DNA of 64,000 nucleotides from Acidobacteriota bacterium (GTDB lineage: Bacteria > Acidobacteriota > Vicinamibacteria > Vicinamibacterales > UBA2999), in assembly GCA_030650395.1 (NCBI GenBank), contig JAUSDY010000016.1, positions 62,001 through 126,000 on the forward strand, written 5' to 3'. A program made the position numbers and the translations under genes. Below the pieces are notes generated by a model. That model was not told the DNA's origin, did not search any database, and was given only the letters and a program-made list of their open reading frames with translations. Below are positions 1-53,520 of the stretch, one piece after another; position 1 is the first letter of the stretch; each line of letters begins with the position of its first letter.

Positions 1-1
1 G

Positions 2-337
2 GACCGGAACGGCGAGCTGGACGATCCGCTCCCGGCGGGCACTTACAGCGGCACCGCGTTGAATGCCATGAAGGACGTGGAGTCCAAGGGCGGGCGTAAC
101 GGCGCGATCGGCCCCGACTACTTCCAGGTCGACGTCCGCGCCGGCTGGCGGGCGCGCCTCGGCAAGGACCGGGCCCTGGACGTTTACCTGGACATCTTCA
201 ACATCACCGACCGCGCGAATTGGGACAATCCGTCGGGAGACCAGCGCGTGGCGGCCACCTTCCTGCAGTTGAGAACTCTGCGCGGCGGCAGCGGGTTCCC
301 GCGTTCTGCGAACTTCGGCCTCAGGTACGCGTTCTAG
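2..337 (+). CDS. TonB-dependent receptor, C-terminal fragment
   Basis: This is the 3' end of a gene that begins before the window, open from base 2 to a TAG at 335. The 111 residues are rich in alternating hydrophobic and polar strands. They include an LDVYLDIFNITDRANW stretch, typical of the last strands of Oar/CarO-like TonB-dependent receptors, and end in the outer-membrane signature ...GLRYAF with a terminal Phe. The likely role is an outer-membrane beta-barrel for oligosaccharide or other large substrates; the substrate cannot be told from this fragment. A strong hairpin follows at 399-426. Such receptors are abundant in Acidobacteriota. Confidence 0.75.
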   Translation, partial: DRNGELDDPLPAGTYSGTALNAMKDVESKGGRNGAIGPDYFQVDVRAGWRARLGKDRALDVYLDIFNITDRANWDNPSGDQRVAATFLQLRTLRGGSGFPRSANFGLRYAF

Positions 338-350
338 TTACTGATCGTGG

Positions 351-372
351 CGACAAACCTTTAGGTTTGTCG
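351..372. repeat. Family A palindrome (arm CGACAAACC, loop TTTA)
   Basis: Perfect hairpin: arm CGACAAACC, loop TTTA, arm GGTTTGTCG. The same palindrome occurs at 6047-6068, 9414-9435 and 35814-35835. A loop variant is at 40283-40312, a degenerate copy at 60308-60330, and a split copy inside the ccmA end at 11951-12043. This copy is intergenic, 14 bp after the receptor stop. Confidence 0.9.
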
Positions 373-398
373 AGTGATATCGCGTCGCGACATACATG

Positions 399-426
399 CG
401 GCCGGGGGAGCAGGCTCCTCCGGCCG
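399..426 (+). terminator. GC-rich hairpin after the TonB receptor
   Basis: Left arm CGGCCGGGGGAG, loop CAGG, right arm CTCCTCCGGCCG, with one mismatch in 12 pairs. It sits about 60 bp downstream of the receptor stop. No clear U-run follows (GTTGTCATT), so it is terminator-like rather than a textbook intrinsic terminator. Confidence 0.5.
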
Positions 427-631
427 TTGTCATTGGAATCAGAGTGGCTTGCCATCCGAAGCTCGTTCTGAATTGGGAACAGCCCACCTTCGCGCTGCGC
501 GCTTCGGTGGGCATCCTTCGCGAATGATTGCTCGCGGGGTTTACCAACCGTAGCTCGCTGCGAGCGCTGAGTCCACCGTCGCGGCTTCGCCGCTATGGTG
601 GACAACCTCCGCGAGGATCGAGAGCGGAGGT

Positions 632-707
632 TGGTGGCCAGGGAGGGAATTGAACCCCCGACACCACGATTTTCAGTCGTGTGCTCTACCAACTGAGCTA
701 CCTGGCC
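632..707 (-). tRNA. tRNA-Phe (GAA)
   Basis: Read on the minus strand this is a 76-nt cloverleaf with an encoded CCA end. The acceptor stem GGCCAGG pairs with CCTGGCC, followed by discriminator A and CCA. The D-arm is AGCTCAGTTGGTAGAGC. The anticodon stem CACGA/TCGTG holds the loop CTGAAAA, giving anticodon GAA. The T-arm is GGGGGTTCAATTCCCTC. All stems pair, so the gene looks functional. A perfect 10-bp hairpin follows the 3' end and may help end transcription. Confidence 0.97.
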
Positions 708-753
708 TCAGGAGAGGCTTCCGAGTATATCGCGGAGCTTTTCGGCCGCGCAA

Positions 754-1275
754 TCAGTCGCCGGGCGTCTTCGAGGGAGGCCGGCCGCCGAGCACGAACC
801 ACGCACAGGCGACGCCGACGATCGCGCCCGCGATCACATCGCTCGGCCAGTGCACGCCGACATATACCCGGGAGACGGCCACGATCACGCCGAGCGGCCA
901 CAACACCCAGCCCGAGACCGGCAACATCCGAGAGCCGGCGAGAGCGCCCGCCATCGCCATCGCGGCATGGCCGGACGGGAATGACGACGTGGTCGGCTTG
1001 GCGTCGATGACCCGCAGTGCCGGAATCACCTCGAACGGCCGCGCGCGATCGAAGATCGGCCTCAACACGTAGTCGTTGATCAGGAACGTGAAGCCGATCG
1101 CGAGTAGCAATCGCCACGCAGCCGGCCGGCGGGCAGGGAAGATGCCGGTGATGAGCGCCAGCATCCACCACAGGAAGCCGGCGGCGCCGAGCGCGCTGGC
1201 AAGAACCATCACGTCATCCAGCCACGGGCGTCGTGACTGGATGACGTAATGCAGGAGAGAAGTGTCGAAATCCAC
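754..1275 (-). CDS. PAP2-superfamily membrane phosphatase
   Basis: 173 residues with about five membrane segments. The PAP2 phosphatase motifs are in order: RPIFDRARP (motif 1; the usual first Lys is replaced by Arg), SSFPSGHAA (motif 2, catalytic His) and SRVYVGVHWPSD (motif 3, His nucleophile and Asp). The family removes phosphate from lipid phosphates such as undecaprenyl pyrophosphate or phosphatidic acid at the membrane. Which lipid is used here cannot be read from sequence. It starts at ATG 1275, shortly after the recA 3' end on the same strand, and could be co-transcribed with recA across the hairpin at 1290-1309. Confidence 0.85.
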   Translation of the reverse strand: MDFDTSLLHYVIQSRRPWLDDVMVLASALGAAGFLWWMLALITGIFPARRPAAWRLLLAIGFTFLINDYVLRPIFDRARPFEVIPALRVIDAKPTTSSFPSGHAAMAMAGALAGSRMLPVSGWVLWPLGVIVAVSRVYVGVHWPSDVIAGAIVGVACAWFVLGGRPPSKTPGD

Positions 1276-1289
1276 GGTCAGGCGGGTCT

Positions 1290-1309
1290 CGCGGAACTAA
1301 AGTTCCGCG
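1290..1309. repeat. Family B palindrome (arm CGCGGAAC, loop TAAA)
   Basis: Perfect inverted repeat: arm CGCGGAAC, loop TAAA, arm GTTCCGCG, followed by CTAC. An identical copy with the same CTAC tail is at 27938-27957. The tail overlaps the recA stop codon: forward CTA at 1310-1312 is TAG on the minus strand. The element therefore abuts the recA reading frame and probably acts as its 3' hairpin. Confidence 0.85.
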
Positions 1310-2344
1310 CTACACCGCAACCGCAGCGGGCTCGGGCTCGCGCGACATGCCGAGCACCTTCCGCACCTTCTCTTCGATCGCCGTGCGGATGTCGATGTGC
1401 TCTTTGAGGAACGTCTTGACGTTCTCGCGGCCCTGCCCGAGGCGCTCGCCGCCGTAGGCGAACCACGCGCCGCTCTTCTCGATGATCTTGTGCTCGACCG
1501 CGATGTCGATGAGGTCGCCTTCGCGCGACACGCCCTCGCCGTACATGATGTCGAACTCGGCCTCGCGGAAGGGCGCCGCCATCTTGTTCTTGACGATCTT
1601 GACCCGCGTGCGCCCGCCGACGACGTTCTCGCCGTCCTTGATGGCGCCGATGCGGCGGATGTCGATGCGCACCGACGCATAGAACTTGAGCGCGCGTCCG
1701 CCCGTGGTGGTTTCGGGGTTGCCGAACATCACGCCGATCTTCTCGCGCAGCTGGTTGATGAAGATGAGCGACGTCTTCGACTTCGACACCGCGCCGGTGA
1801 GCTTGCGCAGCGCCTGCGACATCAGCCGCGCCTGCAGTCCCATTTGCGCGTCGCCCATCTCGCCTTCGATTTCGGCGCGGGGCACGAGCGCCGCCACCGA
1901 GTCGACCACCACGACGTCGACGCTGTTGGAACGGATCAGCACCTCGACGATCTCGAGCGCCTGCTCGCCGTTGTCGGGTTGCGAGACCAGCAGGTTGTCG
2001 ATGTCGACGCCGAGTTTCTTGGAATAGGCCGCGTCGAGCGCGTGTTCCGCGTCGACGAAGGCCGCCAGGCCGCCCGCCTTCTGCGCTTCCGCGATGACCT
2101 GCAGCGCGAGGGTGGTCTTGCCCGATGATTCGGGCCCGAAGATCTCGATGACGCGTCCGCGCGGCACGCCGCCGATGCCGAGCGCGTAGTCGATGCTGAG
2201 CGCGCCGGTCGAGATCACGTCCACCGGGCCGACGGCCTTGTTCTGGCCGAGCCGCATGATGGAGCCTTTGCCGAACTGCTTTTCTATCTGGCCGACGGCC
2301 ACGTCGAGTGCTTTGATTCGTTCCTGTCGTTCGTCTATTGGCAT
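1310..2344 (-). CDS. recA: Recombinase RecA
   Basis: 344 residues. RecA binds single-stranded DNA, catalyses strand exchange and stimulates LexA self-cleavage. Visible features are the N-terminal helix ([25 protein letters not shown]), Walker [10 protein letters not shown] near residue 65, Walker [11 protein letters not shown], the DNA-binding L2 region with [27 protein letters not shown], and a short C-terminal tail. An open frame extends upstream to 2401, but the start is placed at ATG 2344 ([10 protein letters not shown]). It has an AAAGGA Shine-Dalgarno about 12 nt upstream, and a good sigma-70 promoter lies inside the upstream extension. The stop TAG overlaps a dispersed palindrome. No convincing LexA operator was seen. 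Confidence 0.98.
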
Positions 2345-2372
2345 GAGAATGGGTCCTTTCAGGACAGGACTG

Positions 2373-2401
2373 ATCCTAGAAACGCGCCAAGCGAAAGTCA
2401 A
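2373..2401 (-). promoter_or_regulatory. Sigma-70 promoter of recA
   Basis: On the minus strand TTGACT (2401-2396), a 17-nt spacer and TAGGAT (2378-2373) match the -35/-10 consensus well. Transcription would start about 20-25 nt before the chosen recA ATG. This supports starting recA at 2344 rather than at the upstream in-frame ATG. Confidence 0.7.
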
Positions 2402-2548
2402 GGGTAAAAATGTGCACGATACGGCTTGTTTAGGTTCATTTTCAACACTTTAGGGTAATTGACCACTTTCGCCTATCTTCCGGCCGGATCGCAAGGACTG
2501 CGACGTTCGGGTTTGACCGGCATGGCTAAAAGCTCGTACGGTGGATCG

Positions 2549-3052
2549 ATGCCCAGCCCGGTTGGCCACGCGCTCGGAGGAGCCATCGTCGGCTTTCTCC
2601 TGGAGCGTCGGCGCACTCCCCGCGCCGTCCCTCTTAGTGCTTTTGCCGTGGTGGCAATACTTCCCGACATCGATTTCCTGTGGGGCCGGCACAACATGGA
2701 GACGCACAGCCTCGGGGCCGCCGTCCTGGCGGGCCTCGCGATGCTGATGTGGACTCGAGGAAAAAACCCGCGCCTGGCCCTGGCGGTGACGCTGGCGTGG
2801 TCGACCCACGTTCTGTTCGACTGGCTGGGGTCCGACGACACGCCGCCGCTCGGCGTCATGGCATTCTGGCCGCTGACCTCGAAGTTCTATTTCGCGGATG
2901 CGTTTGTCTTCGAGGCGATCTCGCGGCGCTACTGGCTGTCGAACTTCGTGCCGCACAACGCCTGGGCGGTCGCGAAAGAGATCTTGATTCTCGGACCGAT
3001 CGTCGCGATCCTCTGGTTCAGAAAGGTTCGGAAGGGTTCTGAAAGGTTCTGA
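2549..3052 (+). CDS. DUF457/YdjM-type membrane-bound metal-dependent hydrolase
   Basis: 167 residues from ATG 2549; MPSPVGHALGGA is the typical family N-terminus, so the upstream in-frame ATGs are not used. Conserved acidic/His motifs are GHALGG, LPDIDFLWG, METHSLG and STHVLFDWLGSD, which match the YdjM/DUF457 pattern of predicted metal-dependent hydrolases in the inner membrane. Several hydrophobic helices lie between them. The substrate is unknown. The last residues (WFRKVRKGSERF) are encoded by the first units of the 10-mer mirror repeat at 3015-3114, so the repeat has grown into the 3' end of the gene. Confidence 0.8.
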   Translation: MPSPVGHALGGAIVGFLLERRRTPRAVPLSAFAVVAILPDIDFLWGRHNMETHSLGAAVLAGLAMLMWTRGKNPRLALAVTLAWSTHVLFDWLGSDDTPPLGVMAFWPLTSKFYFADAFVFEAISRRYWLSNFVPHNAWAVAKEILILGPIVAILWFRKVRKGSERF

Positions 3053-3114
3053 AAGGTTCTGAAAGGTTCGAACCCATCTGAACCACTCTGAACCCTTCAG
3101 AACCCTTCAGAACC
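3015..3114. repeat. Mirror-symmetric 10-mer array (10 units)
   Basis: Ten contiguous 10-bp units. Five run forward: GGTTCAGAAA, GGTTCGGAAG, then GGTTCTGAAA three times. A self-complementary unit GGTTCGAACC (3065-3074) follows. Four units then run as the reverse complement: CATCTGAACC, ACTCTGAACC and CTTCAGAACC twice. The whole 100 bp can fold as one long hairpin. It covers the 3' end of the plus-strand hydrolase gene and stops 4 bp before the stop codon of the convergent thiolase gene, so it may serve as a shared terminator. Confidence 0.95.
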
Positions 3115-3117
3115 TCT

Positions 3118-4299
<1,182 letters not shown>

Positions 4300-4312
4300 G
4301 AATTTCAGTCTA

Positions 4313-4588
4313 TCAGTCGAATTGAATCTTCTTGATCGTTCCTTCGCCGAGCAAATCCTCGAGGCGGATCTGGATGAGAGAAGTGGACTTGCGGACCGCG
4401 GCAAGCCAGGCCGGCGTTTCAGCGCGCACATACAGCACGCCGTTGTCGGCCAGCCGGACCGTCGTCGATTTATCGATGGCGGCGCCCACGGCCAGCCGCC
4501 AGGCGAAGGCGACCTTCTCGGGTGTGAGCGGGGCTTTGCGGACGACCTCAGCCACGACGGCCGGCATCACTTTGTTCGCCTTGATCAC
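4313..4588 (-). CDS. DUF721/DciA-like protein
   Basis: 91 residues with the DciA/DUF721 pattern: a basic N-terminal helix, then [41 protein letters not shown] (broken here only by description) and a conserved Trp-Leu patch. In bacteria without DnaC, DciA helps load or recruit the replicative helicase DnaB and is also a nucleic-acid-binding KH-like fold. This form is short and lacks any extra C-terminal domain. It is followed after 13 nt by the thiolase gene, an unrelated partner, so the pairing probably reflects only tight packing. Confidence 0.65.
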
Positions 4589-4626
4589 GCAACTGAGAAT
4601 AACATCTGCGGTGACTAGGACTCAGA

Positions 4627-4683
4627 GATCGGGGATCGGGGATCAGCGCATGCGCCGATCCCCGATCCCTGACCCCTGATCCC
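4627..4683. repeat. GATCGGG heptamer repeat with mirror half
   Basis: Two GATCGGG heptamers are followed by GATCA, a self-complementary GCGCATGCGC core, then CGATCCC twice and the variants TGACCCC and TGATCCC. It is another tandem repeat that turns into its own reverse complement. It fills the divergent intergenic space between the DciA-like gene and the FG-GAP gene. Confidence 0.85.
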
Positions 4684-4701
4684 GAGTACAGAAAGGTTCC
4701 T

Positions 4702-5877
4702 ATGCGCAGGACGTTTGCCGCAATGTTCGGGGTCTTGGTCGTCGCGTCGGTGGGAGTGGGCCTGCAAAGCCAGGCGGCCGTGCCGTGGCAGCTGGTCGAG
4801 CACACGATTGCCACCGACCTGCGCGGCGGTTACCAGGTGGTCGCCGTCGACATGAACAAAGACGCCAAGATCGATCTCCTCGCGATTGCGACCAGCGCGA
4901 CGGCCGACCTCGTGTGGTTCGAAAACCCGACGTGGACCCGCCACGTGGTGGCGTCGGGCCTGCCCTCGATGATCAACGCCGACGCGTTCGATCTCGACAA
5001 GGACGGCATCCCCGAAATTGCGCTGGCGAGCGGATTTGCCACTGCGCCGACGCGGAGCGCCGGCGTGATGACACTGCTGACGCACGGCGCCGATGTCAAC
5101 GCGCCGTGGACCGCGAAGGAATTCGACCGGACGCCCACCGCGCATCGCCTCCGCTGGATTGACGCCGAAGGCAACGGGCAGAAGGTGCTGATCAACGCGC
5201 CGCTCGCCGGGATCAAAGGCGTCGCACCTGACTACCGCGATACGGTGTCGATCTACGCGTACAAGCCGAGCGAGCTGGCGCGCACGACCGTCACCGATGC
5301 GGAAGAAGGCGTCATCCACGGCCTCGCCGTCGTCGATTGGGACGGCAAGGGCCGCCAGGCGCTGCTGACGGCCAGCTTCATGGGCATCCACGTCAACCGT
5401 TTTGCAAACGGCAGGTGGCAGCGCACGCAGCTGACCGCGGGCAATCCCGAGGCGTGGCCGAAGAACGGCTCGAGCGACGTCGCCGTGCTTCGCACGAAAG
5501 CCGGGCGCCGGCTCGCCGCCATCGAACCCTGGCATGGCAATCAGGTCGTGATCTATCGCGGCTCGGGCGACACGTGGGATCAACGCGCGGTGATCGACGA
5601 CACACTCAACGACGGCCACACGCTGATTGCGGGCGATCTCGATGGCGACGGCGTGGATGAAGTCGTCGCCGGCTATCGTGGCGCGGGCGGCGGCGTGAAC
5701 ATCTACCGGCTCGGCGCTGACAACCAGTGGGTCAAGACCGTCCTCGAGCAGCCGAAGTCGATGGCCGCAGCCGCGTGCGCGCTCGCGCACCTCAACGACG
5801 ACAAGCGGATCGATCTCGTGTGCATTGGAACATCGACCGCAAACCTGAAGTGGTACGAGAACCAGCCAGCAAAATAA
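4702..5877 (+). CDS. Secreted FG-GAP/VCBS-repeat protein
   Basis: 391 residues with an N-terminal signal peptide (MRRTFAAMFGVLVVASVGVGLQ). Repeated DxDxDG-like calcium-type loops occur in beta-propeller blades: DMNKDAKIDLL, DLDKDGIPEIAL, DGKGRQALL, DLDGDGVDEVVAGY and DDKRIDLVCIG. This is the pattern of FG-GAP/VCBS seven-bladed propellers. It is probably exported to the periplasm or cell surface; the ligand is unknown. Its last 28 bp overlap the start of maf in another frame. No catalytic domain was recognised. Confidence 0.75.
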   Translation: MRRTFAAMFGVLVVASVGVGLQSQAAVPWQLVEHTIATDLRGGYQVVAVDMNKDAKIDLLAIATSATADLVWFENPTWTRHVVASGLPSMINADAFDLDKDGIPEIALASGFATAPTRSAGVMTLLTHGADVNAPWTAKEFDRTPTAHRLRWIDAEGNGQKVLINAPLAGIKGVAPDYRDTVSIYAYKPSELARTTVTDAEEGVIHGLAVVDWDGKGRQALLTASFMGIHVNRFANGRWQRTQLTAGNPEAWPKNGSSDVAVLRTKAGRRLAAIEPWHGNQVVIYRGSGDTWDQRAVIDDTLNDGHTLIAGDLDGDGVDEVVAGYRGAGGGVNIYRLGADNQWVKTVLEQPKSMAAAACALAHLNDDKRIDLVCIGTSTANLKWYENQPAK

Positions 5878-6464
5878 TTCTCGCGAGCCGATCGCCGCGC
5901 CGCGCTGAATTATTGAGCGCGGCCGGCTTCGTATTCGACGTGCACGCGGTGGAGATCGACGAGACGCCACGGCCCGGGGAGCCGGCTGCGGGGTACGTTG
6001 AGCGCCTCGCGATCGAAAAAGCGCAGGCAGCGTTCAAGGAGTTGATCGACAAACCTAAAGGTTTGTCGCCACAAGAAGGTTTGTCGCCAAAAGTTCTGTT
6101 CGTGTTGGGCGCCGACACCACCGTGGTGCTCGACGGCCGCATTCTCGGCAAGCCTGAGGATCGCGCCGACGCGATCGCCATGCTCAAGGCGCTCAGCGGC
6201 CGCGCGCACGACGTAATCACCGGCGTCGCCATCGTCAGCGCCGCCGGCGTCCGATCCGGCGTCGAACACACGCGCGTCTGGTTCGCCGCCGTTACAGACG
6301 AAGACATTCGCCAGTACGTCGACAGCGGCCAGCCCATGGATAAGGCCGGCGCCTATGGGATCCAGGGGCTTGCATCGCGTTTTATCCCGAGAATCGAAGG
6401 CTCGTACACCAACGTTGTTGGGTTGCCGGTGACGCTGGTCTCTAGTATCCTTAGAGGGGAGTAG
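5850..6464 (+). CDS. maf: Maf-like nucleoside-triphosphate pyrophosphatase
   Basis: 204 residues. Maf proteins hydrolyse non-canonical or modified NTPs (for example dTTP, UTP, m5UTP) to NMP plus PPi in the cytoplasm. Visible motifs are IILASRSPRRAELL (phosphate binding), VEIDETPRPGE, AIEKAQ, VLGADTTVVLDGRILGKP (catalytic Asp) and KAGAYGIQG. No ATG precedes the conserved N-terminus. The best start is GTG 5850 (VREPASKII), overlapping the FG-GAP gene by 28 nt; a rare start nearer IILA cannot be excluded. A palindromic element (6047-6088) is inserted in frame. It adds DKPKGLSPQEGLSP in the loop just before the GADT motif, at about residues 66-79, a site that should tolerate insertion. Confidence 0.9.
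   Translation: MVREPASKIILASRSPRRAELLSAAGFVFDVHAVEIDETPRPGEPAAGYVERLAIEKAQAAFKELIDKPKGLSPQEGLSPKVLFVLGADTTVVLDGRILGKPEDRADAIAMLKALSGRAHDVITGVAIVSAAGVRSGVEHTRVWFAAVTDEDIRQYVDSGQPMDKAGAYGIQGLASRFIPRIEGSYTNVVGLPVTLVSSILRGE
6047..6088. repeat. Family A palindrome in frame inside maf
   Basis: Perfect arm CGACAAACC, loop TAAA, arm GGTTTGTCG (6047-6068). The right half is then repeated after exactly 18 bp as GGTTTGTCGCC (6078-6088). Read in the Maf frame it gives DKPKGLSP followed by QEGLSP. The other forward frame, CGA CAA ACC TAA, would stop translation, so the frame used is an open one. Confidence 0.9.
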
Positions 6465-6487
6465 CCTCTTGGGCTAAACCCTGACCT

Positions 6488-6913
6488 ATGAAGTACAAAG
6501 CGATCAAGATCGGTCTGACGAGCCTGGTTCTCGCGCTCACGTTCGGCGGCCTGCTTTACACCACGCTGGCCGAGGGAACGGAGTACTACAAGCACGTCGA
6601 CGAAGTGCTGACGCAGCCTGACGCCTGGTACGGCAAGAAGCTGCAGCTGCATGGCTTCGTCGTGCCGGATTCGATCGGCAAGCGCAAAGACACGCTCGAC
6701 TGGCAATTCAAGGTTCAGAGCAACGGGCACGTCGTCACCGCGTGGTATACCGGCGTCACGCCCGACACCTTCAAGAGCGACTCGGAAGTCGTGTTGAAGG
6801 GCGTGCTCGACAAAGACGGCTTTCACGTGCAGCCCAACGGCGTGATGGCGAAGTGCCCGTCCAAGTACGAAGCCAAGCCTGGAGCCGCGATGGCGCCCTC
6901 CGGGAAGTACTGA
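6488..6913 (+). CDS. ccmE: CcmE heme chaperone, cysteine (CxxxY) type
   Basis: 141 residues. There is one N-terminal membrane anchor (IGLTSLVLALTFGGLLYTTL), then an OB-fold periplasmic domain with YYKHVDEVL, LQLHGFVV, FKVQSNG and VVLKGVLDKDGFHV. CcmE covalently holds heme and hands it to CcmF during cytochrome c maturation. The usual heme-binding His of HxxxY is Cys here: VMAKCPSKY, Cys123 and Tyr127. This matches the CxxxY variant known from Desulfovibrio and some archaea. It is the first gene of a ccm operon and is followed after 9 nt by ccmF. Confidence 0.93.
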   Translation: MKYKAIKIGLTSLVLALTFGGLLYTTLAEGTEYYKHVDEVLTQPDAWYGKKLQLHGFVVPDSIGKRKDTLDWQFKVQSNGHVVTAWYTGVTPDTFKSDSEVVLKGVLDKDGFHVQPNGVMAKCPSKYEAKPGAAMAPSGKY

Positions 6914-6922
6914 GGGGCCGTC

Positions 6923-9391
6923 ATGGCCCCTCTCGGCGCCTTTCTCCTCCTGCTGGCGTTTGTCCTCGCGGCTTACGCCGTCGCCTCCTCCATCGCGGGC
7001 GCGCGGCGCCGCAGCTCCCGACTCATCGAAAGCGGCATCGGCGCGTTCTACACGGTCGCCGCCGTAATGACCGTCGCATCGGGCGTCATCATCTACGCCT
7101 TCGTCGCCGGCGATTATTCGATCCGCTACGTCCAGCGTTACTCCGACGCGGTGCAGCCGGTGTTCTACCGCATCACCTCGTACTGGGGCGGCCTCGACGG
7201 CTCGGTGATGTTCTGGGTGTTTCTGCTGTCGTGTTTCGGCGCGGTCGCGGTGAAGGTGAACCGCGAGCGCCATCGCGAATTGATCCCGTACGTGGTGGCC
7301 GTGATCGCATCGGTGGAGATGTTCTTCCTCTTCCTGATGATCATCCACAACAATCCGTTCTCCACTTATCTGACGGAGTCGCCGACCGACGGCCGTGGCC
7401 TCAATCCGCTGCTGCAGAACTTCTACATGGCGATCCATCCGCCGACGATGTACCTCGGCTTCGTCGGGCTGACCATTCCGTTCGCGTTCGGCATGGCGGC
7501 GCTCTTCACGGGACACCTGGACGACTCATGGCTGCGCGCGGTGCGGCGCTGGACGATGTTCTCGTGGTTCTTCCTGTCGCTGGGCCTGACGCTCGGCATG
7601 CTGTGGGCTTACGAAGAGCTTGGCTGGGGCGGCTACTGGGGCTGGGATCCGGTCGAGAACGCCGGCATGCTGCCGTGGTTCACGGCCACGGCGTTCCTGC
7701 ATTCGGTGATGGTCCAGGAGCGGCGCGGCATGCTGCGCGTCTGGAACGTCTCGCTCGTCATCATCACGTTCCTGCTGACCATCGTCGGCACCTTCCTCAC
7801 GCGGTCGGGCGTGGTGCAGTCGATCCACGCGTTCGGCGAAGACCCGGAGCTGGCGCGCTATTTCGTGATCTTCATGATCTCGACCACGGTGTTCAGCTTT
7901 GGCTGGGTGATCTATCGCCTGCCGATGCTGAAGGCCCGGCACGAGCTCGATTCGTGGGCGTCGAAGGAAGCCGCGTTTCTCGCCAACAACTGGGTGCTGT
8001 TGTTCTCCGCGATGTTCGTGTTGTTCGCCACGCTGTTCCCGACGATCACCGAGGCAATCAACGGCGAGCGCCTCACCGTGGGTCCGCCGTTCTTCAACCG
8101 CTGGATGGTGCCGATCGGGTTGATCCTGCTGGTGCTGACCGGCGTCGGGCCGCTGCTGGCGTGGCGCAAGTCCACCATCAGCAACCTGAAGGATCAGTTC
8201 CTGTGGCCGACCGTGTCGGCTCTGGTCGTGGGCGGAACCATGCTCGCCCTTGGCGTGCGGGTGTGGGGCTCGGGCGTCTGCTTCACGCTCGCCGGTTTCG
8301 TGATGGGCACCCTCACGCAGGAAATGATCCGCGGCGCCAACGTGCGGCGTGGCATGACGGGCACCGACTTCGTGACCGCGATCATCGGTCTGGTCTCTCG
8401 CAACAAGCGACGCTACGGCGGCTACACCGTTCACGTCGGCATCGTCTTGATCTTCCTCGGCTTTGCGGGCGAAGGCTTCAGCCGCGATGAGCAGCTCCTG
8501 CTCAAGCCGGGCCAGGAAGCCACCGTTGGCGATTACACGCTGCACCTCGATGCCATTCGTGTGACAGACGATGGGCAGAAGCAGATGATCACCGGGCACA
8601 TCACGGTCAAAGACAAGACCGGCGAAGTGATCGAACAGATGCGGCCGGCGAAATGGTTCTTCCGCAAGCACGAGCAGGAGCCGACGACCGAAGTCGCGAT
8701 TCGACGGACGATCGCGGAAGACCTCTACATCGTGATGCCGGCGTTCGAGCTCGAAGAGCAGACCGCCAGCGTCGAGGTGCACATCAACCCGCTGGTCAAC
8801 TGGGTGTGGTTCGGGTTCGCCGTTCTCGCCCTCGGTACCGGCATCGCGCTGTTGCCGGAAACAGCCATCACGTTCGCGGTGGCAAGACTGCCGGCCGAAG
8901 CGCTGACGGCGTCGCTACTCATCCTGTCGATATTGCTGTCGGGCGGCATGGCCAGCGCGCAGCACGTCGAGACTGGGCAGGATCCGCGGTTGCAGCTCTC
9001 GTCGCCGAAGGCGAGGGAAGTCGCGCATAAGTTGGCCTGCTGGTGCGGCGGCTGCTCGAAGCTGCCGGTCGGCCAGTGTTCGTGCGGGCACTGCGCGATC
9101 GAGCGCAGCAAGATTGACGGGATGTTGAAAGAAGGCAAGGACGAGAAGCAGATCATCGACTTCTATGTCGCGACCTATGGCGGGAACCAGATCTTGAGCG
9201 AGCCGCCCAATAGCGGATCCGGGCGCGTGGCGTGGCTGATGCCGATCGTCGTGGGCGCGGGCGGTTTCCTGACCGCGGCGTACCTGGCGATGCGCTGGTC
9301 GCGCCGTTCCGCCTTCGCGGGCGCACCCACGGGCGCCGAAGATCCCGAGATGGCGGCGCGGCTCGATCAAGAGCTGCGCAACCTCGACTGA
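6923..9391 (+). CDS. ccmF: CcmF-CcmH fusion (heme lyase plus thiol-reductase domain)
   Basis: 822 residues. Residues 1-650 are CcmF: many membrane segments, the WWD heme-handling motif GWGGYWGWDPVENAGMLPW (about 234-252), conserved periplasmic His and Trp residues, and a large periplasmic loop. A new signal-like segment (SLLILSILLSGGMASAQ) then leads into a CcmH/CycL-type domain with REVAHKLACWCGGC and a further QCSCGHC cluster (about 704-725). A membrane helix and a short tail end the protein. CcmH normally reduces the apocytochrome CxxCH thiols while CcmF ligates heme; fusing them couples both steps. The extra Cys pair is unusual. The stop overlaps the next ATG by one base. Confidence 0.93.
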   Translation: MAPLGAFLLLLAFVLAAYAVASSIAGARRRSSRLIESGIGAFYTVAAVMTVASGVIIYAFVAGDYSIRYVQRYSDAVQPVFYRITSYWGGLDGSVMFWVFLLSCFGAVAVKVNRERHRELIPYVVAVIASVEMFFLFLMIIHNNPFSTYLTESPTDGRGLNPLLQNFYMAIHPPTMYLGFVGLTIPFAFGMAALFTGHLDDSWLRAVRRWTMFSWFFLSLGLTLGMLWAYEELGWGGYWGWDPVENAGMLPWFTATAFLHSVMVQERRGMLRVWNVSLVIITFLLTIVGTFLTRSGVVQSIHAFGEDPELARYFVIFMISTTVFSFGWVIYRLPMLKARHELDSWASKEAAFLANNWVLLFSAMFVLFATLFPTITEAINGERLTVGPPFFNRWMVPIGLILLVLTGVGPLLAWRKSTISNLKDQFLWPTVSALVVGGTMLALGVRVWGSGVCFTLAGFVMGTLTQEMIRGANVRRGMTGTDFVTAIIGLVSRNKRRYGGYTVHVGIVLIFLGFAGEGFSRDEQLLLKPGQEATVGDYTLHLDAIRVTDDGQKQMITGHITVKDKTGEVIEQMRPAKWFFRKHEQEPTTEVAIRRTIAEDLYIVMPAFELEEQTASVEVHINPLVNWVWFGFAVLALGTGIALLPETAITFAVARLPAEALTASLLILSILLSGGMASAQHVETGQDPRLQLSSPKAREVAHKLACWCGGCSKLPVGQCSCGHCAIERSKIDGMLKEGKDEKQIIDFYVATYGGNQILSEPPNSGSGRVAWLMPIVVGAGGFLTAAYLAMRWSRRSAFAGAPTGAEDPEMAARLDQELRNLD

Positions 9392-9996
9392 TGGCCCGGA
9401 CCGCAGCCGCGGACGACAAACCTAAAGGTTTGTCGCCACGTGAGGGTTTGTCGCCACGCGAAGGTTTGTCGCCACTTGAAGAACCGTTCCTGCGGCCCTG
9501 GCAGTTTTTCCTGCTCGGCGGCATGCTGGCCGCCACCGCCACAGTGATCGTCGCCACCGGGCAATCGCCGGCCAACATCATCATCCTCAGCCTGACCGTC
9601 GTCGCGGTGAGCTTCGTGGGCCTTGGCGCGTATCGCATGCTGGCCCCGCTGGTCCAGGCCGACGTCGAGACCCCAGCCTTGATCGGTGGCCGCACGCGTA
9701 TTGCGCTGGAGCGTGAGAAGGCGCTGGTGTTGCGCTCGCTCAAAGAGCTCGAGTTCGATTTTGCGATGGGGAAGATGTCGAAGGCCGACTTCGACGAGAT
9801 GGCTGGCCGGCTTCGCCGCCGCGCCGTCGGTTTGATGCGCCAGCTCGACGCCGGTGGCGGGTATCGCGAGCAAATCGAAAAGGAAGTGGCGAAGCGGCTC
9901 GGCCAACCACTCGTTGAAGGTTTGTCCGCTTGCGAATGCGGCACGACCAACGATCCCGACGCGCGGTTCTGCAAGTCCTGCGGAGCGAAGCTATGA
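9391..9996 (+). CDS. CcmI-like membrane protein with C-terminal zinc ribbon
   Basis: 201 residues. It begins at ATG 9391, overlapping the ccmF stop (TGATG). An N-terminal repeat-derived segment DKPKGLSPREGLSPREGLSPLE (written in pieces: DKPKGLSP, REGLSP, REGLSP) precedes two membrane helices. Next comes a charged helical region resembling the CcmI/DUF-type 'EREKALVLRSLKELEFD' arm, and last a four-Cys zinc ribbon CECGTTNDPDARFCKSCGAK. Position in the ccm operon suggests a role in apocytochrome handling. No experimentally studied homologue is known to me. The repeat peptide comes from the palindrome at 9414-9480. Confidence 0.7.
   Translation: MARTAAADDKPKGLSPREGLSPREGLSPLEEPFLRPWQFFLLGGMLAATATVIVATGQSPANIIILSLTVVAVSFVGLGAYRMLAPLVQADVETPALIGGRTRIALEREKALVLRSLKELEFDFAMGKMSKADFDEMAGRLRRRAVGLMRQLDAGGGYREQIEKEVAKRLGQPLVEGLSACECGTTNDPDARFCKSCGAKL
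9414..9480. repeat. Family A palindrome extended by 18-bp tandem units
   Basis: Perfect palindrome 9414-9435 (arms CGACAAACC/GGTTTGTCG, loop TAAA). From 9427 onward the right half is iterated as three exact-length 18-bp units, each starting GGTTTGTCGCCAC (9427-9444, 9445-9462, 9463-9480). Because 18 is a multiple of three, the expansion keeps the frame and yields GLSPRE, GLSPRE, GLSPLE. A lone half site, GGTTTGTCCGC, recurs near 9919 in the same gene. Confidence 0.92.
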
Positions 9997-11222
9997 GGCG
10001 GTCTGCTTTCTGCCTTCTGCCTTTTGCCTTTTGCCTTGTCACGGTGGCGCCGGCATTTGCGCAAGTCGCGATGCCCGATTCGAGCGCGATTGCCGGCACG
10101 CCGCTGCCCGCGCCAGAGCTTCCGGACCGAACGGTCATCGTGCGCGTGGTTCGCGAGCGCATGGGCAACAACATCGCCGGGCAGCCAGTGACGCTGCGTG
10201 TGGGCAACGCCACCCGCACCGCCACCACCGACGCGCAGGGCCGCGCGCAGTTCGACGGTCTGACCGCGGGCACGCTGGTGCAGGCCACGACCACGGTCGA
10301 CGGTGAGGTGCTCACGTCGCAGGAGTTTCCGGTTCCGGCACAAGGCGGCGTGCGCGTTGCGCTGATCGCCGGCATTCAAAAGGCGGCCGCCGCCGAGCAG
10401 GCCGCCGCCGCGGCCGGCGCCCGCGAACCGGCACGGCCCGGCGTGGTCGAGTTCGGCCCCGAGTCGCGCCTCATCCTCGAGTTCCAGGACGACAACCTGA
10501 CGTTGTTCTACATTCTCGAAGTGATCAACAATGCGCGCACGCCAATCGACATCGGCGGCCCGCTGATTCTCGAGCTGCCGACCGGCGCCTCCGGAGCGGT
10601 GATGCTGGAGGGCTCGTCGCCGCAGGCCAGCGTACTGGCCGCGCGGGTCACCATCACCGGGCCGTTTCCGCCTGGCAAGCTGGTAGCGCAAGTCGGCTTC
10701 TCACTGCCCAACGCAGGTTCGGATCTCGTGCTGACGCAGAAATGGCCGGCGGCGTTTTCGCAGATTTTCATCGCCGCCGAGAAGATCGGGCCGATGCAGA
10801 TGTCGTCGTCGCAGTTGACCGACGTTCGCGAGACACAAACCGAGGGCGGTGTGTTCATCATGGGAACCGGCGGCCGCATCGAGCCGGGTGGCACCTTGAC
10901 GGTAAACCTCACGGGCATGCCCGCCGCAAGCCACACGGCCCGTAACGCCGCTCTCGCGATCGTGGTGCTGATTCTCGGCATCGGGTTGTGGCTGGCGTTA
11001 ACGCCGGGCTCGGCCAGGGCCGCGCAGGAGGGCCGGCTGGCCGGCAAACGCGAGCGGCTGATGGGCGACATCGTGACCCTCGAGCGCAAGCGCCGCACGC
11101 GCGCACTGACCGAAGCCGAACAAGCGCGCCTGCAGCGGCTCACCGCCGATCTCGAGCGCGTGCTGGCGTCACTCGATCAGGCCCCGGCGTCACGAGACGA
11201 GGGCGTCCACCTCCGCGCGTGA
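9993..11222 (+). CDS. Secreted membrane-anchored protein in the ccm operon, unknown function
   Basis: 409 residues from ATG 9993 (ATGA overlap with the previous stop). It has a signal peptide whose hydrophobic core FCLLPFAFCL is encoded by four heptamers. A carboxypeptidase-regulatory-like beta domain follows (TVIVRVVRERMGNNIAGQPVTLRV...GRAQFDGLTAG), then an Ala-rich linker and a beta-rich domain. One membrane helix (ALAIVVLILGIGLWLAL) and a cytoplasmic coiled coil (LERKRRTRALTEAEQARLQRL) complete it. Its place between the zinc-ribbon gene and ccmA suggests a part in cytochrome maturation or assembly. I do not recognise a named family. Confidence 0.6.
   Translation: MRRSAFCLLPFAFCLVTVAPAFAQVAMPDSSAIAGTPLPAPELPDRTVIVRVVRERMGNNIAGQPVTLRVGNATRTATTDAQGRAQFDGLTAGTLVQATTTVDGEVLTSQEFPVPAQGGVRVALIAGIQKAAAAEQAAAAAGAREPARPGVVEFGPESRLILEFQDDNLTLFYILEVINNARTPIDIGGPLILELPTGASGAVMLEGSSPQASVLAARVTITGPFPPGKLVAQVGFSLPNAGSDLVLTQKWPAAFSQIFIAAEKIGPMQMSSSQLTDVRETQTEGGVFIMGTGGRIEPGGTLTVNLTGMPAASHTARNAALAIVVLILGIGLWLALTPGSARAAQEGRLAGKRERLMGDIVTLERKRRTRALTEAEQARLQRLTADLERVLASLDQAPASRDEGVHLRA
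10008..10035. repeat. Four heptamers (TTCTGCC/TTTTGCC) in a signal peptide
   Basis: TTCTGCC twice followed by TTTTGCC twice, contiguous. Read on the minus strand this is the GGCAGAA family also present at 12734-12761 between ccmB and ccmC. Here the repeat is coding and supplies the Phe/Leu/Cys-rich core of the signal peptide of the gene starting at 9993. Confidence 0.9.
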
Positions 11223-11245
11223 CGCGCGACGGTGGACAAGCCGAC

Positions 11246-12052
11246 ATGAACAGCGATTTTGAACGCCTGGCCGTCGTCGATGTCGCGCGGCACTACGGCC
11301 GGCGCAAGGCGCTCTCCCAAATCAATTTCACCTGTGCGAGCGGAGAGATCGTCGGCCTGCTCGGACCGAACGGCGCGGGCAAGTCGACCCTCCTGAATAT
11401 TCTCGCCACATTGCTTGCGCCATCGATCGGCCGCGTCGAGTACGGCGAACGAACGGTGGCCGACGGCGGCGCCGAGGTGCGTGCCCGCATCGGCATGCTC
11501 GGTCACGATCTGTTCCTGTATCCGGAGCTGACGGCCCGGGAAAACCTCTCGTTCTTCGCGCAGTTGTATGGCCTGAGCGACATCCCAACGATTGTGCGCG
11601 CCGCGCTCGAACGTGCCGGCCTCGCCGATCGAGGTGACGACTTCGTGTCGGGTTTTTCGCGCGGCATGCGGCAGCGAGTGGCGCTCGAACGGGCGCTGCT
11701 GCATGAGCCGCGCCTGATCCTGCTCGACGAGCCTTTCACCGGTCTCGATCAAGCGTCGGCGTCTGCACTGGTCGCCCGCCTGCGGGAGCGCCAGCGCGCC
11801 GGCTGCATGGTGGTCGTGGCGACGCACGACCTCGACGTCGCCGACGGGTTGTTGACGCGCGCCATCTACTTGAAGAACGGCCGCATCGTCGGCACCGATA
11901 CCGACAGCCGCGGCCTGGCCGATCGCTACCGGCGGGCCATTAACAACTCAGGTGGCGACAAACCTTTCTTGTCCGCCGACTTGTCCGCCGAAGCGCTTCG
12001 CGCGAAGGTGGAAGCGCCTGGCGCGAAGGTGGAAGGTTTGTCGAAATCATGA
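11246..12052 (+). CDS. ccmA: CcmA, ATP-binding subunit of the heme-related ABC transporter
   Basis: 268 residues. The ABC ATPase motifs are Walker A GLLGPNGAGKSTLL, Q-loop region MLGHDLFLYPELT, signature VSGFSRGMRQRVALERAL, Walker B LILLDEPFTGLD and the H-loop VATHDLDV. With CcmB and CcmC it releases holo-CcmE from CcmC using ATP. The start is ATG 11246, 23 nt after the previous stop. The last 33 residues (from GGDKPFLSADLS to VEGLSKS) are not part of the normal domain. They come from a split palindromic repeat at 11951-12043. The stop overlaps ccmB by ATGA. Confidence 0.93.
   Translation: MNSDFERLAVVDVARHYGRRKALSQINFTCASGEIVGLLGPNGAGKSTLLNILATLLAPSIGRVEYGERTVADGGAEVRARIGMLGHDLFLYPELTARENLSFFAQLYGLSDIPTIVRAALERAGLADRGDDFVSGFSRGMRQRVALERALLHEPRLILLDEPFTGLDQASASALVARLRERQRAGCMVVVATHDLDVADGLLTRAIYLKNGRIVGTDTDSRGLADRYRRAINNSGGDKPFLSADLSAEALRAKVEAPGAKVEGLSKS
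11951..12043. repeat. Split family A element with nested repeats
   Basis: The outer halves GGTGGCGACAAACCTT (11951-11966) and AAGGTTTGTCG (12033-12043) are the two arms of the family A palindrome pulled apart by 66 bp. The insert contains CTTGTCCGCCGA twice and GGCGCGAAGGTGG-like units twice. All of it is translated as the C-terminal tail of CcmA, so it looks like repeats inserted within a repeat. Confidence 0.8.
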
Positions 12053-12732
12053 GCGCTTTTTTCCGCGTCGCGTGGCATGTGATGCGCAAGGACCTCACGG
12101 TCGAAGTGCGCAGCAAGGAAGTGCTGCTGACCACACTGTTCTTCGCCGTCTCGGTCGTGCTGGTGTTCTCATTTGCGATCGTCCGCGAAGGCCGCGCCCC
12201 GGACGATGTGGCGGCGGGCATTTTGTGGGTGGCGATCTCGTTTTCCGGCACTCTTGCCATGGGCCGCACCTTCGAGCGCGAGCGCTACAACGACACCTTG
12301 CGAGCGCTCATCCTGGCGCCGGCCGAACGCCCCGCGATCTACACCGGCAAGCTGCTCGGGCTGTTGTTGTTGCTCGGCCTGGTCGAGATCGTGCTGGTGC
12401 CGCTCATCGGGTTGCTGTTCAACGCGCCGATCCTGGCGTACCCGGGCATGCTGGCGGCGCTGCTCCTGCTCGGCACGCTGGGCTTTGCCGCGGTCGGCAC
12501 GTTGTTCGCCGCGATGCTGGTGCGCGTGCGCAGCCGCGACACGCTGCTGCCGGTATTGCTGTATCCCATCACCATTCCGGTGATGATTGCCGGCGTGCGC
12601 GGCACGGCCGCGCTGTTTCAGGCCGCGCCGGACGAGTCGATGGCGCGCTTCTGGATTGCGCTACTGATCTTCTGGGACGCGATTTTCGTGACCCTCGCGC
12701 TCTGGACGTTCGAGCCTGTAATGACGGAGTGA
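12049..12732 (+). CDS. ccmB: CcmB, heme exporter-type permease
   Basis: 227 residues with six membrane segments. A conserved CcmB-type N-terminus (WHVMRKDLTVEVRSKEVLLTT), FERERYNDTLRALILAP and the Pro-rich PVLLYPITIPVMIAG loop are visible. It is the membrane partner of CcmA in the complex that frees heme-loaded CcmE. It starts at ATG 12049 inside the ccmA stop (ATGA). A heptamer repeat (12734-12761) separates it from ccmC. Confidence 0.93.
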   Translation: MSAFFRVAWHVMRKDLTVEVRSKEVLLTTLFFAVSVVLVFSFAIVREGRAPDDVAAGILWVAISFSGTLAMGRTFERERYNDTLRALILAPAERPAIYTGKLLGLLLLLGLVEIVLVPLIGLLFNAPILAYPGMLAALLLLGTLGFAAVGTLFAAMLVRVRSRDTLLPVLLYPITIPVMIAGVRGTAALFQAAPDESMARFWIALLIFWDAIFVTLALWTFEPVMTE

Positions 12733-12733
12733 C

Positions 12734-12761
12734 GAAAGGCAGAAGGCAGAAGGCAGAAGAA
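12734..12761. repeat. Heptamer repeat GAAAGGC/AGAAGGC between ccmB and ccmC
   Basis: GAAAGGC, AGAAGGC, AGAAGGC, AGAAGAA: four units of 7 bp. They begin directly after the ccmB stop and lie 25 nt before the ccmC ATG. The repeat is the reverse complement of the TTCTGCC repeat at 10008-10035 in the same operon. Confidence 0.88.
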
Positions 12762-12785
12762 CGGCATAGAATTCAAGACGCAGCA

Positions 12786-13445
12786 ATGAAGCACCTCACG
12801 ACACCCTTCATCGGCATCTCCGCGGCCATGCTCGCCGTGGCGCCGTGGATTATCAACGCCGCGCCCTACGAGTCGACGATGGGGCTCGTGCAGAAGGTGT
12901 TCTATTTTCATTTTCCAGCGGCGATTCTGTTCCTGCTCGCGGCCACGATCTGCGGCGTGAGCAGCGCCATCTTCCTGTTCGGCAAGCGGCCGAACGCCGA
13001 TGGCTGGGCGATCGCGGCGGCCGAGTTGGGCCTGGTGTTCGGCTCGTTGACCCTGGTCACGGGTCCCTTGTGGGCGCGTAAGGCGTGGGGCGTCTGGTGG
13101 GTCTGGGACCCGCGGCTGACGTCGAGCCTGCTCCTATGGATGATCTTCAGCGCCTATTTACTGCTGAGAAAATACGGCGGACCCGGCTCCGACAAGCTCG
13201 GCGCCGGCATGGCGTTGTTCGGCATGGCAAACGTGCCGTTCATCTACGTGTCGGTGAATGTGTGGCGCACGCTCCATCCGCAGACGTCGGTGGTGCCGAC
13301 GCTGCCCGCCGACATGGGCATCCCGCTCTGGTTCTGTTTTGCGGCCATGACCATGTTGTTCTTGTCGCTGCTCAGCCTCAGGGCGCGGCTGGAGCATCAA
13401 CGGGCCCGCGTCGAAGCCCTTTACCTCGCCGAGGACGAAGCGTGA
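12786..13445 (+). CDS. ccmC: CcmC, heme transfer protein to CcmE
   Basis: 219 residues with six membrane helices. The WWD motif of the heme-handling protein family appears as WGVWWVWDPRLTSSLLLW. A His before it (FYFHFPAAI) and a second His after it (RTLHPQ) fit the heme axial ligands. CcmC loads heme onto CcmE. The start is ATG 12786; the open frame extends far upstream through ccmB in another frame and is not used. The stop TGA overlaps the next ATG. Confidence 0.94.
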   Translation: MKHLTTPFIGISAAMLAVAPWIINAAPYESTMGLVQKVFYFHFPAAILFLLAATICGVSSAIFLFGKRPNADGWAIAAAELGLVFGSLTLVTGPLWARKAWGVWWVWDPRLTSSLLLWMIFSAYLLLRKYGGPGSDKLGAGMALFGMANVPFIYVSVNVWRTLHPQTSVVPTLPADMGIPLWFCFAAMTMLFLSLLSLRARLEHQRARVEALYLAEDEA

Positions 13446-13708
13446 TGTCTTTCCTTCGAATTCTTCTGGTGCTTGCGGCTCTCGCTTTTGGCGCGCCGCC
13501 CGCGATCGCCGCACAACAACCGCCGCCGCAGAGCGAGTTCGTGCCGGTGGATGAGATTCCACCCGGCGAGCAGATTCCCGCCATTAACCTCGTCGCAGCC
13601 GCCTATGGCTTCGTGTGGGTCGTGCTGCTTGGCTACGTGTGGTCGATCGCGCGCCGGCTCCAGAAAGTGGAGGCAGAGCTCGTGGACCTCGAATCCCGGA
13701 AGCGCTGA
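13445..13708 (+). CDS. CcmD-like small membrane protein
   Basis: 87 residues. A signal or anchor segment (ILLVLAALAFGAPPAIAA) is followed by a proline-rich linker. The CcmD signature is a single helix, AAYGFVWVVLLGYVWSIARRLQKVEAEL, with positive charges after it. CcmD stabilises the CcmABC-CcmE complex. The N-terminal extension makes it longer than E. coli CcmD (about 69 residues). It overlaps both neighbours by one base. Confidence 0.75.
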   Translation: MSFLRILLVLAALAFGAPPAIAAQQPPPQSEFVPVDEIPPGEQIPAINLVAAAYGFVWVVLLGYVWSIARRLQKVEAELVDLESRKR

Positions 13709-13857
13709 TGGAGATCGGCGTCCCGACCGCCGCGCATTTCATCTTCATCCCGGCCGTGCTGATTATCGGCCTCGTGATTGGATGGATCCTCGGGTCGCGC
13801 GCCGCGCAAGATGCGATGGCGATGGAGATGAAGCGACGCGACGAGCGCCGGAAGTAG
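13708..13857 (+). CDS. Small single-helix membrane protein, last ccm operon gene
   Basis: 49 residues, MEIGVPTAAHFIFIPAVLIIGLVIGWILGSRAAQ... (one hydrophobic helix with GxxxGxxxG-type small residues and a charged tail). It starts at ATG 13708, overlapping the ccmD-like stop, so translation is probably coupled. The family is not recognised; it may be an additional CcmD-type accessory subunit. Confidence 0.6.
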   Translation: MEIGVPTAAHFIFIPAVLIIGLVIGWILGSRAAQDAMAMEMKRRDERRK

Positions 13858-13902
13858 CGCCTCTTTTCTTTGGCAGTTTATCTTCGTATTCATTAGCCTG
13901 TG

Positions 13903-14131
13903 CGCCAGCGCGAATGAGCATCTCCCGGCGTTCGCGCGCCCGGCGTCAGGGCATGAATGCTCTGCGAGAGGGCTCTCGCTCGGCGGTCAAATCTCCCTCG
14001 GCGCATTAATCGCTTTAGCGATGGACGTCTAAATCCGCACGGCGCCTGCATGGCCTCCGGTCGATTTGACGAGGAATTCTTGTGGTCGCCTCGCTCCCGC
14101 ACCCGCCGGGAGATGCTCATTCGCGCTGGCG
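13903..14131. mobile_element. MITE-like element, copy 1 (229 bp, perfect 28-bp TIRs)
   Basis: Bases 13903-13930 (CGCCAGCGCGAATGAGCATC...) are the exact reverse complement of 14104-14131, giving 28-bp perfect terminal inverted repeats. The interior aligns base for base, in inverted orientation, with the element at 14537-14767. It also contains a TTTA-loop hairpin ATCGC/GCGAT at 14009-14022. There is no transposase, and no clear target-site duplication was seen. Confidence 0.88.
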
Positions 14132-14210
14132 GCGCGGCCGACCGTTGCAATGTCCCGCGGATAGTGAAGTTGTCCGACCGGGCAATTTGCCCGCTCGTCA
14201 AAAGAATGTC

Positions 14211-14536
14211 ATGAAGCGCGCGAAGTCACTGTCGATCAATTTGCTCGTAGGACTCGCCTTCGGCTGTCACCAGACAGTGCCGAACAAACTTACCGAAGAT
14301 ATCTGGACCCTTGAAATCGCGATGGTTCTCGCTCAACCAGACGCTGCTCTTGATCGGGTATGGTTTATCGTTCGGAATGTTTCAGACCATGCTCGTCTAG
14401 CTTGCGTTCAGCCGTCTTGGTCCGTCACGCGAGGGGATGGTTCACCATTCAGGATGACGCCGGGCCCATACCGCACCTGGCAGCTGTGAGGAGATCGACG
14501 AGTTTCGCCTTGTGTTGCCTGCTCAAACAATGCCGC
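14211..14536 (+). pseudogene. Degraded small lipoprotein gene between two MITE-like elements
   Basis: An ATG at 14211 opens a 92-residue frame with a lipobox-like start (LSINLLVGLAFGC) and mixed-charge sequence (TEDIWTLEIAMVLAQP, WFIVRNVSDHARLAC), ending at TGA 14487-14489. One base out of frame, the reading continues as CEEIDEFRLVLPAQTMP until the second element begins at 14537. This suggests a frameshifted and truncated gene. It is distinctly less GC-rich than its surroundings. The family is not recognised; it could also be a short intact lipoprotein. Confidence 0.45.
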
Positions 14537-14767: not shown

Positions 14768-14798
14768 TCACCAGTCTGCAAAACATTTGGGTCAGACC

Positions 14799-17379: not shown

Positions 17380-17400
17380 CAGGCTCACCACTATAGCAAC

Positions 17401-17430: not shown

Positions 17431-17471
17431 AAGGCCCTGCGGATGAAGCGCGAGCCAACGCGAATCGAACA

Positions 17472-17496: not shown

Positions 17497-17510
17497 GGTT
17501 ATTCCAATAA

Positions 17511-53390: not shown

Positions 53391-53520
53391 GGTTCCGCAC
53401 GAGGGTTCCAGACGAGGGTTCCATCCGAGGGTGCCGCACGAGGGTTCGTCGAACCTCCGTCAAGAACCTCCGTGAGGAACCTCCGTGAGGAACGTCCGTG
53501 CGGAACCTCCGTGAGGAACC
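53391..53520. repeat. Mirror-symmetric 13-mer array (10 units)
   Basis: Exactly ten 13-bp units. Four run forward: GGTTCCGCACGAG, GGTTCCAGACGAG, GGTTCCATCCGAG, GGTGCCGCACGAG. A self-complementary central unit GGTTCGTCGAACC (53443-53455) follows. Five units then run in reverse orientation: TCCGTCAAGAACC, TCCGTGAGGAACC, TCCGTGAGGAACG, TCCGTGCGGAACC, TCCGTGAGGAACC. It can fold into a hairpin with a stem of about 60 bp. It starts seven bp after the glycosyltransferase stop and ends 32 bp before the ttcA start. The arms share the GGTTC...GAACC theme of the 10-mer array at 3015-3114. Confidence 0.96.

Follow-up and report, generated by a model that had tools for sequence, protein, structure and literature searches.

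The mirror array at positions 3015-3114 of the 64,000-nt window analyzed (C171:62001-126000, from a genome of 5.41 Mb in 180 contigs) is probably a gene-less copy, one among dozens, of a small dispersed element composed of a GGTTC arm, a gene for a four-helix-bundle (4HB) protein of the S23p/IVP type, and a GAACC arm. There is no gene within the window copy, and its ends are common to a gene-bearing 10-mer element of the same genome; the array is built like the two ends of an element that carries a 4HB gene. Scattered bacterial short repeats are thereby tied to a likely partner protein, the S23-type 4HB protein.

The forward arm of the array (3015..3069, + strand) comprises six GGTTC cores that start at 3015, 3025, 3035, 3045, 3055, and 3065 (unit GGTTC[T/A/G]GAA[A/G], period 10, 5.5 units, 91% matches). 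The reverse arm (3070..3114, - strand) comprises five GAACC cores that start at 3070, 3080, 3090, 3100, and 3110 (period 10, 4.5 units, 85% matches). At the array center, GGTTCGAACC (3065..3074), the last forward core is fused to the first reverse core with a spacer of 0, and the inverted repeat formed by 3020-3069 and 3070-3119 is 82% complementary, likewise with no spacer. An earlier reading made from the sequence alone had described five forward and four reverse 10-mers around a palindromic center; the array is real and its center palindromic, and the count is corrected to six GGTTC and five GAACC cores. The same reading had the array encode the last residues of a protein, which was confirmed: the array supplies the codons from 3015 onward and, as judged by sequence, the stop codon (TGA 3050-3052) of a YdjM-family (PF04307) inner-membrane gene (2549..3052, + strand), and its far edge lies 3 nt from the convergent thiolase gene (PF00108/PF02803; 3118..4299, - strand). 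The only Rfam match in the window was one tRNA. A sister 13-mer array is located at 53391..53520, with a GGTTC arm (53391-53447), the center GTC, and a GAACC arm (53451-53520). As had been noted, the two arrays share their layout and their GGTTC/GAACC edge, in both cases with the GGTTC arm followed by the GAACC arm. Of these two examples, the 10-mer array lies between convergent genes, whereas the neighbors of the 13-mer array are co-directional.

Searching the genome by BLAST with the two window arrays returned 42 and 94 matches, which are pieces on both strands and not distinct loci. We then compiled a catalogue of arrays that covers 1,445,652 bases (1.45 Mb) of the 5.41 Mb, in which a chain required a minimum of three in-register, exact GGTTC cores. 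It contained 74 arms with period 13, 27 with period 10, and 32 with period 20 (twice 10), and 3 chains at all other periods, compared with 4 chains over all periods in a reversed-sequence control. The view of the sequence-only reading that such arrays are not due to chance is thus borne out. That reading had named a scan returning only its two loci as the outcome that would speak against a mirror-making mechanism; the catalogue, which includes stretches picked for a BLAST match to an array, contains 69 GGTTC loci, nearly all with period 10 or 13. Of these, 36 have a GGTTC arm followed by a GAACC arm (F-R), 1 has the reverse order (R-F; L058), 21 consist of a GGTTC arm alone, and 11 of a GAACC arm alone. 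Further gene gaps are occupied by other families with 7-, 8-, 9-, and 18-mer units. Densities and the following count were obtained from 849,308 bases picked regardless of arrays, where a blind pairing that used no unit definition gave 13 mirror pairs versus 1 direct pair. The inward arrangement is a general one: among adjacent array pairs of the same family, taken over eight families, 52 of 53 were inward ('+-') and one was '++', the F-R order was seen in 8 of 8 close 18-mer pairs in two congeners, and it was also seen in 5 of 5 pairs of single arms separated by wider gaps of 318-1723 nt.

Comparison of the two arms bears on how the mirror is formed. Unit identity was 0.716 within an arm and 0.609 between the arms of one locus (p = 7e-6), and it was 0.64-0.67 across different loci, so that two arms resemble each other no more closely when they belong to one locus than when they come from different loci. 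The nth unit on the left matched the nth unit on the right no better than other units (0.600 versus 0.609, p = 0.57), indicating no register match, and at co-directional loci the sense strand folded better than the antisense strand in 9 of 15 cases (p = 0.45). These identities, together with the lack of a register match and of a strand bias, argue against local template switching as the source of the mirror, which is rejected on the arm-identity comparison, and against an RNA hairpin under fine selection. The interpretation given by the sequence-only reading is partly upheld: the arrays are numerous and not fortuitous, and their arms are not copied locally from each other. The same data can be weighed against neutral slippage and template switching acting at each site, with arrays purged in coding regions and so left at gene ends. 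The homogenization within arms, the variable copy number, and the non-genic unit lengths, which are mostly not multiples of 3, are all as this explanation would have it. It does not account for the likeness of arms being no greater within than between loci, for identical units at dozens of places that are hardly present in relatives (3 of 40 genomes, including this one), or for the association with 4HB genes described below, and it is already strained by an F-R order that is fixed across families. We consider it distinctly unlikely.

The gene-bearing elements provide the main support for a gene-less copy. The genome contains 15 PF05635 4HB ("23S rRNA IVP") genes, 4 of which score under Pfam's cut-off; TIGR02436 was confirmed in all nine 4HB proteins checked (eight from this genome and one cyanobacterial). 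Inverted flanks (blastn, E<=1e-5) were present around 13 of these 15 genes, as opposed to 1 among 193 control genes with lengths of 270-700 nt; L196 and L201 had no inverted flanks at this threshold. A similar result was obtained with control windows placed 735-1050 nt off in the very loci of the 4HB genes, with 13/15 versus 1/29 in this genome and 13/24 versus 0/48 in congeners. Among the matches listed, the values were 21/29 versus 0/56 for Acidobacteriota and 13/29 versus 2/57 for cyanobacteria, these two tests being based on 30 and 28 loci taken from a longer list, to which L229 and L230 were added, with the short-flank loci L209, L224 (control-window test only), L259, and L264 dropped. 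The arms around the 4HB genes of this genome are made of 18-mers (L188, L189), 10-mers (L190), 13-mers (L191, L192), 9-mers (L194, L202), 8-mers (L197, L198, and, with the unit GGTTCAGA, L193), the 7-mer ATCTCAG (L195), AAGGCAG (L199), and AATAACC (L200).

The complete 10-mer element spans C1:75923-76554 and encloses the 4HB gene C1:76064-76357. Wide arm pairs enclosing a 4HB gene were found on C1 (10-mer) and C116 (13-mer) of this genome and in the congener G004 (10-mer). Of the five wide arm pairs, only two contain a 4HB gene. A GNAT gene lies within another (L130), an unnamed ORF within that of L153, and at L151:2207-4094 (C123 of this genome) the 13-mer arms, 1.7 kb apart, flank an ORF whose product has the zinc ribbon of IS1595-type transposases (PF12760).

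Both the length and the core of the unit track the lineage of the 4HB protein. In a pairwise test of 33 4HB proteins (528 pairs, with the arm units of L070 and L193 added by hand), the 13 pairs with the same unit had a mean protein score of 0.53 versus 0.16, a value that was reached in 0 of 2000 permutations; in 3 of the 13 the proteins were unrelated. In a tree from which ten of the 44 proteins sought were left out (doubtful frames, fragments, and two cyanobacterial proteins), the five 18-mer carriers form one clade (100/99), and one clade of 11 (100/99) contains all carriers of GGTTC units (8-, 10-, 13-, and 14-mer) plus those of GGTGC units (8- and 9-mer). The GGTTC carriers by themselves were not resolved as a single clade: the tree requires 2 changes, with 1 change in 18% of bootstraps. 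The presence of the GGTTC 10-mer and 13-mer carriers in a single 4HB clade is the likely reason for the GGTTC/GAACC edge common to the two window arrays. The link extends to arrays outside elements, since 63 of 108 non-coding arrays of this genome match the unit of one of its own 4HB arms, compared with a mean of 13 and a maximum of 35 for shuffled units (20 runs). Matches to cyanobacterial arms (34 of 108) were inside the shuffle range, and the arms of other groups match some arrays too. Congener arrays matched 4HB arms fetched from their own species in 0 of 10, 1 of 5, and 2 of 10 cases, in small samples of 4 loci each, and for two large families of this genome, GAGTTAA and GGGCTTGA, no carrier was found among its own 4HB genes.

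We also inspected the same gene junction in relatives; the named ones that share the gene are chiefly Acidobacteria MAGs, Vicinamibacterales included. Eight congeners were compared, and the YdjM-like/thiolase junction was assessed in the seven that have the gene. The window array was found in none of these seven: the 3' ends of the two genes overlap, with the array absent, in G001, G002, G004, G005, and G008, they abut in G003, and they are separated by about 1.2 kb in G007. The junction of this genome is about 106 nt longer than that of three congeners, and by these sequence comparisons the window array appears to be a recent, lineage-specific insertion. Over 56 window junctions with orthologs, those of this genome that carry an array were longer (median 34 versus 0 nt, p = 0.010). 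Relatives carried an array in 6 of 30 comparisons at junctions with an own array and in 11 of 110 others, so that a preference for shared sites was not significant (p = 0.20). Where this genome has its 10-mer 4HB element, the same flanks enclose an 18-mer array of seven units in G008 and a short 18-mer-like array in G004, and both sites lack the 4HB gene.

Arrays lie close to gene ends. The distance from the array edge to the abutting stop codon has a median of 0 (IQR -2 to 5 nt). Of 138 arrays at abutting 3' ends, 117 are in the usual sense of their family and 21 in the opposite one, a count to which mirror arms contribute by construction. Provision of stop codons was considered as a cause of this polarity; the 13-mer sense unit GGTTCCTCACGAG has no stop codon, and the polarity of the 13-mer family thus cannot be explained in this way. 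According to gene calls from a purpose-written script, which make the junction classes approximate, arrays of all families were present at 14/87 convergent, 45/452 co-directional, and 5/96 divergent junctions. The enrichment between convergent genes proposed by the sequence-only reading held against divergent junctions (p = 0.027) and not against co-directional ones (p = 0.13), and is weak overall; divergent and co-directional junctions did not differ significantly (p = 0.17), and 11 of the 69 GGTTC loci are at divergent junctions.

This placement would also be expected if a bidirectional hairpin at 3' ends, acting as terminator, exonuclease block, or insulator, were selected and arose independently at each place, the link to 4HB genes being secondary. 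The sense bias, the distance to stop codons, and the excess at convergent over divergent junctions fit this explanation, as does the strong fold predicted for RNA of the window array on both strands (-62.2 [+] and -74.8 [-] kcal/mol; z -8.3 and -9.6), which 0 of 200 shuffles equaled on either strand. In addition, two more distant Acidobacteriota of the Vicinamibacterales type have other mirror arrays at the YdjM-thiolase junction, a GATTG-type array in L089, read by eye, and a GTGATGTG-type array in L097, also called by TRF. However, the arms lack unit-by-unit co-variation and the sense strand is not the better folded one, as reported above. A T-tract is absent, and intrinsic terminators were rejected because terminator-like sites (window 1-20000) numbered 12 versus 13.3 in shuffles. 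Furthermore, 32 of the 69 loci have one arm alone and can form no such hairpin, five congeners have overlapping genes and no array, and the co-variation of unit and 4HB protein is left unexplained. Overall, we regard a selected 3'-end hairpin as unlikely.

Dispersed short palindromic repeats near gene ends (REP sequences and BIMEs) co-vary with a partner protein family, the RAYTs, and carry the tetranucleotide GTAG/CGTC. The arrays described here have a comparable habit, being dispersed, palindromic, and intergenic near gene ends, and they too co-vary with a partner protein family, although this partner is a 4HB protein and not a Y1 transposase and the REP tetranucleotide is not in the unit. 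That the arrays are REP/BIME-type palindromes mobilized by a Y1 (RAYT) transposase is very improbable, given that the surroundings of the sole PF01797 gene in the genome (C1:102855-103178; L170) contain no GGTTC array. A RAYT/REP system was rejected as the source of GGTTC arrays, the ends of this gene being other repeats (GGGGTCAGGTC...). At L170, the only locus at which a Y1 transposase gene was found, the nearby GGGGTCAGGTC-type repeats were read as its inverted ends.

MITEs are gene-less copies whose ends are common to a gene-bearing element. The gene-less window array is MITE-like in anatomy, as it has its ends in common with an element of this genome that does carry a gene. It differs from MITEs in that the ends consist of tandem arrays whose length varies, the gene encodes no known transposase, and no target duplication was found (1.33 at the 36 F-R loci versus 0.96 +/- 0.25 for shuffled flank pairs, not significant).

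For the copying of such elements, we envisage that the 4HB protein recognizes the tandem units, in DNA or RNA form, and contributes to copying or retaining the elements, which would imply that the elements are mobile and the arrays bound by the protein. Solo arrays would then derive from loss of the gene from between the arms. Loss of a gene between inward-facing arms would explain both the fixed arm order and the short, variable center of mirror arrays (0-41 nt). The arms could afterwards lengthen and homogenize through slippage, which would account for their length and homogeneity, and arrays would persist where they do little harm, directly 3' of stop codons. The transcript of an array would be a long hairpin that may form the 3' end of an mRNA or insulate neighboring genes.

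One of the closest known systems is the intervening sequence (IVS) of 23S rRNA. The Coxiella burnetii IVS carries an S23p four-helix-bundle ORF within the stem of its inverted ends, with tandem heptamers (GACAGAT) of strain-variable number 5' of the ORF, and 23S IVSs are described as sporadic in distribution and called selfish (Warrier 2016, PMC4990558). The C1 10-mer element resembles them in being a 4HB ORF enclosed by inverted ends whose RNA is predicted to pair around the ORF (z -6.3, 0 of 20 shuffles). In contrast to the IVS, the elements examined here sit between protein genes, they have tandem arrays for inverted ends, and copies without a gene are scattered through the genome. No rRNA was seen by eye around the C1 element and the window copy is flanked by protein-coding genes; being outside rRNA, neither is, strictly speaking, a 23S IVS.

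Mirror heptamer arrays as such have already been published. In two Xanthomonas species, GGGAATC heptamers form 70 and 75 convergent array pairs, which lie near stop codons on the coding strand, are few between divergent genes, and occupy different genes in related species (Rehm 2015, PMC4692102). Here also, two arrays of one unit converge (36 F-R versus 1 R-F loci, and the blind pairing). The present genome differs in harboring many families with units of 7-18 nt, and the 10-mer unit (consensus GGTTCTGAAA) is not of the G-quadruplex-forming kind, as no run of three G occurs within one unit. Because the 10-mer lacks a G-tract, such arrays cannot all owe their existence to G-quadruplexes. A text search of Rehm 2015 turned up no mention of 4HB genes. 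TAACTGA heptamers are dispersed and intergenic in Beggiatoaceae, cyanobacteria, and Bacteroidetes, are almost all direct repeats, and often lie 5' of start codons (MacGregor 2015, PMC4679880). A TAACTGA-binding protein was considered there as a possible mobile element, and the text searched for a 4HB gene does not mention one. Arms of the TAACTGA type flank one of the cyanobacterial 4HB genes, L229. A search of open-licence literature turned up no paper connecting 4HB genes with mirror arrays.

Several bacterial groups are rich in short tandem heptamers, for whose spread the papers cited here offer no mechanism; S23p/4HB proteins, in turn, were described without a known function (Warrier 2016, PMC4990558). 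The link between gene and repeat, present in Acidobacteriota and cyanobacteria and with units that co-vary with the protein, offers one testable answer to both puzzles. We tentatively put forward, as a possibility that falls somewhat short of probable, that 4HB S23p/IVP proteins serve an entire class of short tandem repeats in bacteria as partners, in the way that RAYTs do for REPs, each subunit of the ring-shaped pentamer reading about one unit and the protein spreading or maintaining the arrays. The class would span heptamers and longer units, direct or mirrored, and would have the 23S IVS, TAACTGA, and GGGAATC repeats as members, with 23S rRNA as one landing place. XCC0516 of Xanthomonas campestris (2gsc) is a relative of the 4HB protein (E 9e-16). 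A relative is described as a pentameric ring (Warrier 2016, PMC4990558), and we infer that the protein meant in that passage is 2gsc/XCC0516. Five is also the commonest number of cores per arm (29/79 13-mer arms and 10/29 10-mer arms), which, together with the pentameric ring, invites the speculation that one repeat unit corresponds to one 4HB subunit.

Several other repeat arrangements were recorded. GAGTTAA-type arrays lie on both sides of a bifunctional-nuclease gene (PF02577; L053:8409-8891), the sole control gene that passed the inverted-flank test. An RNase P RNA gene (RF00010, L049:12097-12585, on C171) is located between GAGTTCA/GAGTTAA heptamer arrays of the same orientation (L049:12013-12629). 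Within the window, an 18-nt repeat (AAGGTTTGTCGCC...) at 9425-9481 falls in a gene called at 9391-9996 and resembles the 18-nt repeat at 6058-6093; with DKPKGLSP-type peptides in the ORFs, these form a separate repeat family.
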